This document shows positions 49,096 to 51,114 of a DNA stretch of 64,000 bases, one piece after another. This DNA comes from Beroe forskalii (taxonomy: Eukaryota; Ctenophora; Nuda; Beroida; Beroidae). Each line of letters begins with the position of its first letter. Position 1 is the stretch's first letter. The position numbers were made by a program, and so were the translations under genes. Below the pieces are notes generated by a model. That model searched no databases, was not told where the DNA came from, and worked only from the letters and a program-made list of their open reading frames with translations. The stretch spans positions 248,001-312,000 of the forward strand of contig WFMF01000158.1 in assembly GCA_011033025.1 (NCBI GenBank), in the 5' to 3' direction.

Positions 49096-51114
49096 CTAAA
49101 TAGGAGCAATTGGCCCTCCTCTTGTTACATTAGCATATGTTCTCTGGTTGACTGTTTTATTATAAGTCTTTGCCCTAAAAATAGACTGCTTAATCAGCCT
49201 TACAAGGAGACGCACCCCCTTGGTTGCATTAATGTGCAGTACATCATTACTGTCATTAACAGAATAAATATTCTTCAAAAGTGATGAATGAACATCAACA
49301 AACTCACCAAATCCCTCAACAAATGTTACATGCAAATTTGACTGAATCAGGTCACTGTTTATGTATTTATTGAATTTGAAGATTTTTTTGTTGATTGTAC
49401 TTACGAATTTGGGAGACCTTAGTCTTGTAAAGCTTATAGATCTCAAGAACTTCCTGTTCAGTAACATTGTTTTTAAGGTCGTTAGTTCCAGCCATAACAA
49501 CTATGTTCTTGAATGAAGTACAAGTGAGGGGATCGATGTCTGATACTTTAGGGACGAAGCTTCTGAATCCAGGTGTTGCCTGGCCCACTTTTCCTTTACC
49601 AGTACCAAACTGGATTTTGCCAAAGTTGGAATCTCCGACGAGAAGTGTCGAGTTGAAATTTGACTAATGTATAGCCCTAAAGGTCAGGCTGTACCGAGTT
49701 GAGTCTTCCCGGTCAGGTTCAGCCCTGATCTGATGCTTGTAGAAGTCTTGGCTATGGCGACTCATCTCGTACATACTTCTGGTGGGACAATAGATTGTAC
49801 TCTCCAAATCGTCATTTGTGTTTCGAAATACAACTCTGCGCGTCGCTCCAACTGATATGGTGAAGATTGATGACCAAGGGCAAATATCCCCTTCATTATC
49901 AGAGTGTTCAGGTAGGACAGACATGTTTCCACCATACTTGTTCACCAGGCATGAGTTGATTTCATAATGGAATCTTGATTCGTGGTGTTTTCTGGCAAAG
50001 TCACAGTTGAGTTTCTCCATGAGTTTTTTGATGACATTGGGGCTCTCCTTAGGACGTGTTTTAGAGCCCATGTACTTGTAGTACTCCCCAAATTGCAAGA
50101 CCCCTCTGTTGCCTTCTGTAACAAAGGATTCAGACTCAAGAAGTTCCAGAAGCTCTCTCTCGTCATCTGTGCTGATAAAATCTTCCACAAAGTTTTCAAT
50201 GTGGTTTGTTCTGTGGATCAGTGGGGCATCCTCAACCTCAATGGGCTCAGGTGGGGGTTGGGGAGGATTAGGTGAGGGCAGATGGCTTTAGACAAGCTCT
50301 CTAGTTGCTTGCCAATTCCTTCCATGAATGAGGCATTGGCTTGTAGGACATCAGTCAGTTTAGTATCCACCATTGAGTCCAGTGAGTCTACTACTGCAGT
50401 TAGAAACTCATTTGCATGAGCAATGTTATCGAATGAGGATTTGGTTTTGGCCGCTTTGTGGCTTTTGGGACATGGGAACGCAGGGAGGTAGCACCACGGG
50501 CACTGCCACTGGACAAGGATAGAGTCCACTGCCTCCTTGGTGAGCTTATCACTCTTTAAGTTTGCACACCCGTTGTGCCAAACCTGCCCACATGAGTTGC
50601 AAGTCATCAACCATGATGTTCCATTTGATGATGCCTTGCAGGGACATCTTTGTTTAGGTGGAGGCCCCTTCTCTGTTGGGGTGGCGTCTTTCTTGGGAGG
50701 TTCTACTGCCAGAGGTGAGATGGGTGGTGTTGGGCTATGCAAGGCAGGAGTTGGACTGACAGTTGTGAGGTTTGGACTTTGACTGCGCAGCCGAGGACCA
50801 TTGAGATTTAGACTCAGTGATTTTCTGGATGCAGGGGAGTGACCAACTGATCTGCTTGCAGAGGATGAGCCCTTGGCCGGTTTTGAGGGGATGGGTTCAG
50901 AGGTTCTCTCCTTCTTTCCTTTGATCTTGTTCTCTGTCTGAGATTGAGAGTGCATGATGGGTAATTGCAAGGCTTGAGCAGGTCGATCAGGGGGATTGGG
51001 TTCAGCAGACCCAGGCCACCTGATGTACACACCCCCCAGGAGGAAGAGGACCATACTGAGCGCCAGGACAGAACAGAGCAGTCTCCTAGTGATTGTACCA
51101 CAGCTGATCAGCAC
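49096..51114 (-). pseudogene. LINE copy B ORF1: hydrophobic N-term, PHD finger, AlkB domain, SGNH esterase
   Basis: The frame opens at a GTG (51114), with the first ATG at codon 21 (about 51054). Residues 11-33 are hydrophobic (LLCSVLALSMVLFLLGGVY). Residues 157-208 form a C4HC3 PHD finger (C157, C159, C172, C175, H180, C183, C205, C208). A helical segment (about 234-278) follows. After a frameshift near 50245 the AlkB-type domain occupies 49664-50188 ([30 protein letters not shown]), then the SGNH part with GDSN and GTND. A short deletion removes part of the esterase after IRKYN. The original C-terminus is [12 protein letters not shown] before a TAG, 12 bases ahead of ORF2. Confidence 0.8.

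Follow-up and report, generated by a model that had tools for sequence, protein, structure and literature searches.

An AlkB-type dioxygenase domain precedes an SGNH esterase in ORF1 of LINE retrotransposons of the ctenophore Beroe forskalii

A stretch of 64,000 nucleotides from the ctenophore Beroe forskalii (GenBank assembly GCA_011033025.1, contig WFMF01000158.1, positions 248,001 to 312,000, forward strand), hereafter referred to as the window, contains two copies, A and B, of a long interspersed nuclear element (LINE). The first open reading frame (ORF1) of this element encodes a domain of the AlkB dioxygenase family followed by an esterase of the SGNH type, and the second (ORF2) encodes a Cys/His finger, an endonuclease of the EEP family and a reverse transcriptase (RT). 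The element is presumably CR1/L2-like, judging from its layout and motifs. The parts of both copies, in window coordinates, are as follows.

25576..26676 including the stop (frame 25576-26673), plus strand: copy A, C-terminal part of ORF1, an open frame of 366 amino acids (aa), truncated at the 5' end
25651..26064, plus strand: copy A, AlkB match (PF13532), frame residues 26-163
26104..26559, plus strand: copy A, SGNH/GDSL motifs G177-D-S179-N, G226/N228 and D325..H328
27319..28572, plus strand: copy A, beginning of ORF2, with a weakly matched Cys/His finger ahead of an EEP endonuclease; broken further downstream
28536..30074, plus strand: copy A, RT section of ORF2, split over several broken frames, with PQGS and FADD blocks recognized by eye
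51123-49096, minus strand: copy B, ORF1, with finger, AlkB and SGNH spread over several frames
50221..51123, minus strand: copy B, N-terminal ORF1 segment carrying a C4HC3 finger (PHD_4 E 1.1e-4 and PHD E 2.3e-3, both under the cut-off)
49667..50287, minus strand: copy B, AlkB preceded by an N-terminal extension (PF13532, 55.4 bits, cut-off 31.2, E 1.2e-14)
49370..49663, minus strand: copy B, first part of SGNH (PF13472 E 0.0045, under the cut-off)
49099..49500, minus strand: copy B, last part of SGNH in another frame, without a Pfam match, resembling copy A residues 272-365
48356..49089, minus strand: copy B, beginning of ORF2, comprising the finger and the initial endonuclease part, read in two frames that overlap (49089-48787 and 48811-48356)
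43726..47526, minus strand: copy B, remaining ORF2 and 3' part, recognized by DNA similarity to copy A and interrupted at about 45587-46379

In copy A, the two ORF1 domains lie in one frame, with AlkB at about residues 1-165 and the esterase at about residues 170-366, and the frame holds PEHSDNE, YKHQI, RYSLTFR, GDSN, GTND and DVLH in that order. The Pfam match to PF13532 (E 1.3e-14, 55.3 bits against the cut-off of 31.2) includes the HxD pair H87/D89, the acidic residue E91, the distal H144 and the arginines R157 and R163. The match to PF13472 (GDSL lipase/esterase; residues 191-274, E 1e-5) remains under the curated Pfam cut-off. In ORF2 of copy A, two EEP endonuclease families score over their cut-offs (PF14529, E 2.4e-7; PF03372, E 1.6e-6), and a tblastn search with the RT of a genomic relative, L043, spans 339 of 340 positions. 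About 600 nucleotides (nt; 26671-27279) separate ORF1 from ORF2 in copy A, and copy B has no such stretch. Conversely, positions 47527-48469 and 45587-46379 of copy B have no counterpart in copy A; the latter overlaps an open frame on the plus strand (45441-46121) that, judged by eye, represents the end of another reverse transcriptase.

A sequence-only reading of the window had proposed that finger, AlkB and SGNH occupy a single ORF1 in copy B and that copy A confirms this fusion. The order of the motifs in copy B holds, although its ORF1 is not one reading frame, because a frame shift separates finger from AlkB, a stop lies between AlkB and SGNH, and a further frame shift falls within SGNH. 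Copy A bears out the union of AlkB and SGNH in one frame and lacks the finger, its similarity to copy B starting exactly at 25576. The complete fusion is carried by two relatives elsewhere in the genome, L032 (692 aa) and L033 (715 aa), in which finger, AlkB and SGNH share a single open frame with approximately 81% identity to copy A. The two window copies are 94.5-97.3% identical at the DNA level across four aligned pieces. A degenerate nucleotide pattern encoding E-H-x-D-[DN]-E-G occurs exactly twice in the window, in copies A and B, against an expectation of 0.00 from 100 shuffles.

The 216 Mb genome, in which the contig of the window is designated C201, was searched with several queries. 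All resulting counts are lower bounds, since only part of the candidates was scored: 112 of 289 for the copy A protein, 150 of 189 for PF13532, 75 of 235 for the L051 query described below, 100 of 496 for ORF2 and 150 of 2862 for RVT_1, with two further genome scans scoring 40 of 3521 and 150 of 169. Every one of the 112 scored candidates matches the copy A protein, down to 30% identity, and many lie in open frames of 650-860 aa. Twenty AlkB places were taken with their flanks for close study. Among them, L043, L048 and L049 have unbroken ORF1s of 748, 661 and 796 aa (stop to stop), each overlapping an unbroken ORF2 (1141, 1143 and 1138 aa, respectively). In these ORF2s, RVT_1 is matched with E-values of 1.6e-37, 9.8e-37 and 2e-39, and the EEP endonuclease family is matched in all three (over the cut-off in L048, under it in L043 and L049); a PDB search with one ORF2 returned LINE-1 ORF2p and R2 proteins among its 12 matches. 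Of seven full-length ORF1s scanned, PF13532 exceeds its cut-off in all seven, PF13472 reaches E <= 0.01 in six, under the cut-off each time, and PHD families reach E <= 0.01 in five, never over the cut-off. Weak Pfam matches are also located between finger and AlkB in L043, L041 and L049. When 71 of the 112 copy A protein matches were entered into a proximity count, an ORF2 match was found at most 1.5 kb downstream at 39 of the 62 AlkB-SGNH places examined, with a median gap of 153 nt. The LINE context, the esterase and a finger, as proposed by the sequence-only reading, are supported.

In the PF13532 scan, all 150 scored places exceed the cut-off, and 91 have SGNH beside AlkB; judged by coordinates, SGNH lies downstream within 500 nt on the same strand at 89 of these and upstream at two. 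At the latter two (C225:192371-193480 and C847:365706-366803), coordinates place the esterase before AlkB, the open frames being 1169 and 2026 aa long; this order may represent a separate fusion. The other 59 places are without a detected SGNH, 24 of them in frames of at least 400 aa, and may comprise host genes, other elements or diverged esterases. No relatives of the family were found in viral contigs, phages, plasmids or prokaryote genome contigs at the limits used.

A second, distant LINE type with the same module is represented by L051 (3-1754, minus strand) together with L052. Its ORF1 of 646 aa carries AlkB and then SGNH, and the ORF2 of L052 starts with two Cys-rich fingers followed, as judged by eye, by an endonuclease-like stretch. 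Using L051 as the query, at least 12 further places were found to extend across AlkB into SGNH, internal stops interrupting some of them, the SGNH part of these matches being positioned by proportion. On contigs C401, C547 and C1013, same-strand frames of 1238, 1223 and 1266 aa lie 0.5-1.2 kb downstream; the L051 type is taken to be a LINE because frames of exactly these lengths match the start of the L052 ORF2 and RVT_1. Against solved structures, the AlkB domain of this type also matches ALKBH2 (3.2e-10) and ALKBH3 (1.5e-8).

Conservation of the active sites was assessed in an alignment, A1, of 20 unbroken ORF1 stretches ranging from 81% to 25% identity to copy A, in which PF13532 is matched at E <= 0.01 in all 20 and PF13472 in 19. 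H87, D89, E91, H144, R157, R163 and Y31 are present in all 20 members and Y29 in 19; 22 of the 165 columns of the AlkB part are invariant. In the esterase, S179 and N228 are found in all 20 members, and D325 and H328 in 19, the remaining one having a gap there. At the nucleophile, the L051 row is out of register, and the sequence of L051 itself reads TDS. Each of the 20 frames of at least 500 aa has all three AlkB motifs, and 18 of them have all three SGNH motifs, the exceptions being L020, whose frame ends early, and L051, whose piece was cut. When all 35 distinct open frames, including fragments, are considered, the AlkB motifs are present in 28, 28 and 29. The assignment to the AlkB dioxygenases made in the sequence-only reading is upheld by the Pfam scores of both window copies, and its expectation that family members retain the HxD...H and Arg residues agrees with their invariance in all 20 aligned ORF1s.

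Purifying selection acts on the AlkB part. Ratios of nonsynonymous to synonymous divergence (dN/dS; NG86) were calculated for 19 of the 20 A1 members (L051 excluded), with values from 32 of 171 pairs listed. For AlkB, they amount to 0.22 for L024/L025, 0.175 for L014/L018, 0.15-0.16 for L022 against L024 and L025, and 0.04-0.08 in the trio of copy A, L002 and L003, where dS is near or at saturation; the esterase gives 0.01-0.16 in the same close pairs. AlkB has also diverged together with its neighbours. Across 14 of 17 loci that were usable (L002 has a short RT, L010 no RT match, and L007 lies outside A1), the Mantel correlation is 0.95 between AlkB and SGNH and 0.91 between AlkB and the endonuclease, and none of 999 permutations was as high.

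With regard to the branch of the AlkB family, the A1 profile matches ALKBH2 best among solved structures (4.8e-14), followed by ALKBH3 (1e-11) and ALKBH8 (5.3e-9), with ALKBH5 far behind (0.64). L025, compared with the same kind of target, matches ALKBH2 (5.6e-5) and Escherichia coli AlkB (6.6e-5). NCBIfam AlkB models matched four and three of the 20 A1 members, and the PHROGs match is annotated 'alkylated DNA repair' (2.4e-13). An m6A (N6-methyladenine) eraser of the ALKBH5 type was rejected as the first choice, given an E-value of 0.64 for ALKBH5 versus 4.8e-14 for ALKBH2. E91 aligns with the glutamate that ends HRDDE in ALKBH2, which is taken to be Glu175 because the iron ligands of ALKBH2 are His171 and Asp173. 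PMC3985658 describes an acidic residue close to the catalytic centre (Glu175 of ALKBH2, Glu195 of ALKBH3, Asp135 of AlkB) and states that replacement of Asp135 by Ala in AlkB abolishes activity on 1-methyladenine (m1A) and that a YXY/F pair touches the base. The ctenophore domain shares with ALKBH2, ALKBH3 and E. coli AlkB the HxD...H motif, RxxxxxR, the acidic residue past HxD, the YxY/F pair and PF13532, and differs from them in residing in a retrotransposon protein fused to an esterase and in having histidine at the counterpart of ALKBH2 Arg110 in 7 of 20 members. We infer that the domain works as an Fe(II)- and 2-oxoglutarate-dependent enzyme like ALKBH2, ALKBH3 and AlkB; judging from these nearest relatives, substrates of the m1A or 3-methylcytosine (m3C) type would be favoured over m6A.

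Several known systems provide a frame for this arrangement. Like the type IV (esterase) ORF1 of CR1/L2 LINEs, for example ZfL2-1, the proteins described here have a C-terminal SGNH domain with G-D-S-N, G-x-N and D-x-x-H; unlike type IV ORF1, they carry an AlkB dioxygenase in front of the esterase. The SGNH profile matches PDB 4c1b, an entry named ORF1-encoded protein in the database that we take to be zebrafish ZfL2-1, with an E-value of 0.0067 over 102 positions, and is outscored there by bacterial-type GDSL proteins (8gr2, 2.1e-7; PatB 8tlb, 2.3e-7). An account of ORF1 types in the accessible part of PMC4120745 covers RRM, CCHC, PHD, esterase and coiled coil and mentions no dioxygenase there, the word oxygenase being absent from its main text, and the available portion of PMC3905857 on LINE ORF1 likewise mentions none. 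No description of AlkB in a LINE was found among the open-licence literature listed (without Repbase entries), which does not establish its absence in print. Captured oxygenases are known from other mobile elements. Orchid Ty3/Gypsy retrotransposons also possess an AlkB-family dioxygenase, which, according to the text available from PMC9289625, is encoded by an extra, separate ORF of a plant long terminal repeat element and belongs to the ALKBH5 branch, whereas the domain considered here lies within ORF1 of a LINE and is nearest to ALKBH2/3. Similarly, the fungal TET/JBP elements, as presented in the accessible text of PMC12730594, are mobile elements bearing a 2OG-Fe(II) nucleic-acid oxygenase, in that case of another oxygenase family and in DNA transposons rather than an AlkB domain in a LINE.

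The window copies belong to a LINE family with an ORF1 composed of finger, linker, AlkB and SGNH and an ORF2 composed of finger, EEP and RT, an anatomy shown in many copies, and the interpretation that we regard as reasonably probable is that AlkB acts in it as an ALKBH2/ALKBH3/AlkB-type enzyme that clears m1A and m3C from the RNA or cDNA of the element. Within the ORF1 ribonucleoprotein, AlkB would strip pairing-blocking methyl groups of the m1A/m3C type off the RNA of the element itself, or off its cDNA while single-stranded, and target-primed reverse transcription (TPRT) on the cleared template would then not be halted. The esterase might bind lipids or membranes, as proposed for ZfL2-1, and chromatin may be what the finger reads. 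Packaging of element RNA is the presumed task of ORF1 proteins, and esterase-bearing ORF1 proteins in RepBase have no known structural RNA-binding domain, as stated in the accessible part of PMC3905857. The text available from PMC12140624 reports that m1A hinders the R2 reverse transcriptase used in ordered two-template relay (OTTR) and that AlkB treatment strips m1A and m3C, raising the capture of most 3' tRNA halves; the block of an R2 RT by m1A and its relief by AlkB together suggest that the AlkB domain of ORF1 may clear its own template. In the chain that would lead from a conserved active site through RNA demethylation to better copying, the first step is likely and the last is the weakest. 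A broader proposal is offered more tentatively, as something we would sooner doubt than assume: LINEs in this genome may have evolved an RNA-template cleaner, an ORF1 demethylase of Watson-Crick-face methyl groups acting before or during TPRT and providing more full-length copying and escape from host RNA methylation, with the AlkB-esterase module present in at least two distant LINE types and perhaps, in reverse order, in a third.

A number of observations weigh against the template-clearing interpretation. R20, which aligns with ALKBH2 Arg110, is arginine in only 13 of 20 members and histidine in 7, and the available portion of PMC3985658 describes the ALKBH3 counterpart of Arg110 as required for activity. 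E91 alone does not exclude m6A as a substrate, because an acidic residue serves likewise in ALKBH5 and FTO (a glutamate elsewhere in ALKBH5, Glu234 in FTO, according to the same portion of PMC3985658). In far pairs, dN/dS rises to 0.47 for AlkB and 0.50 for the esterase among the 32 of 171 pairs listed, values that tell little because dS is saturated, as is true of most pairs. The Mantel correlation between AlkB and RT is just 0.50, again exceeded or equalled by none of 999 permutations for the 14 copies. L019 (C247:1231384-1232463) has a mosaic ORF1, its AlkB being closest to L015 and its esterase to L011 and L014, with a switch near the domain boundary in a sliding comparison among the copies compared. 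The finger is not universal, as C4HC3 is present in 14 of 20 frames of at least 500 aa and missing from the long frames of L021, L022 and L051. Esterase frames of approximately 400 aa without a scored AlkB match alongside also exist in the genome, at least one of which (C314:545796-546332) has an RT about 2.3 kb downstream (C314:548631-549311). AlkB is therefore not needed by every LINE there, and such esterase-only, LINE-like places make it look like an add-on to a known kind of LINE. Finally, a single-sequence AlphaFold2 model of copy A has a mean predicted local distance difference test (pLDDT) score of 38.5 and is unusable for judging the fold.

Under another explanation, the domain would act not on RNA but on DNA, repairing alkylation damage, or 3-methylcytosine caused by methyltransferases, in the intermediate of integration (the cDNA or the opened target). 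The closest solved relative, ALKBH2, works on double-stranded DNA (PMC3985658, accessible part), and a study of cnidarian DNA methylation counts ALKB2 together with DNMT1/3 as DNA methylation machinery (PMC8857917, accessible part, which also cites Rosic et al. 2018 for a component that coevolved with the DNMTs). However, ALKBH3, a single-strand enzyme according to the same part of PMC3985658, scores nearly as high as ALKBH2 (1e-11 versus 4.8e-14), and ORF1 proteins are presumed RNA packagers in the available text of PMC3905857; we consider DNA repair rather unlikely. Slightly less likely again is a role in removing m6A, or some other methyl group, that the host deposits on element RNA as a silencing signal. 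A precedent is provided by the ALKBH5-like domain of the orchid Ty3/Gypsy elements, a measured m6A RNA demethylase whose authors propose a link to host surveillance (accessible part of PMC9289625), but the LINE domain is nearest to ALKBH2/3, and ALKBH5 chains match it with an E-value of 0.64 or weaker.

It is also conceivable, though improbable, that the AlkB fold has been kept mainly for nucleic-acid binding, replacing the RNA-binding domain missing in esterase-type ORF1, with catalysis secondary; binding alone would not require each of the 20 members, down to 25% identity with copy A, to keep the metal site, the two arginines and the acidic residue, as they do. Chance similarity, or a host AlkB gene captured once without a role, has a negligible probability in our judgement. 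Both window copies are decayed, as passive capture would allow, but the genome yields 112 scored matches, many in frames of 650-860 aa, and the domain is under purifying selection and diverges together with ORF2. A chance match was rejected on the PF13532 scores, the genome copies and the shuffled-pattern test. A demethylase-like domain in an esterase-type ORF1 without a known RNA-binding domain would offer a concrete candidate activity for LINE ORF1 proteins. Such a conserved demethylase would suggest that base methylation of RNA or DNA genuinely hampers retrotransposition in this host, and it would put a LINE on the short list of mobile elements with their own base-modification erasers, alongside the orchid Gypsy AlkB and fungal TET/JBP elements.

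Apart from copies A and B, the window contains a further LINE RT fragment (51658-52219), whose DNA is 66% identical to the RT of copy A. A tandem repeat at 33720-34238 consists of 7.8 copies of a 45-nt unit and stays open in a frame that reads as a 15-aa repeat, and a tRNA gene is located at 59155-59228 (65 bits, Rfam). Toward the end of the window (60001-64000), GC content rises to 0.47-0.49, with a GC skew of -0.21 to -0.29.

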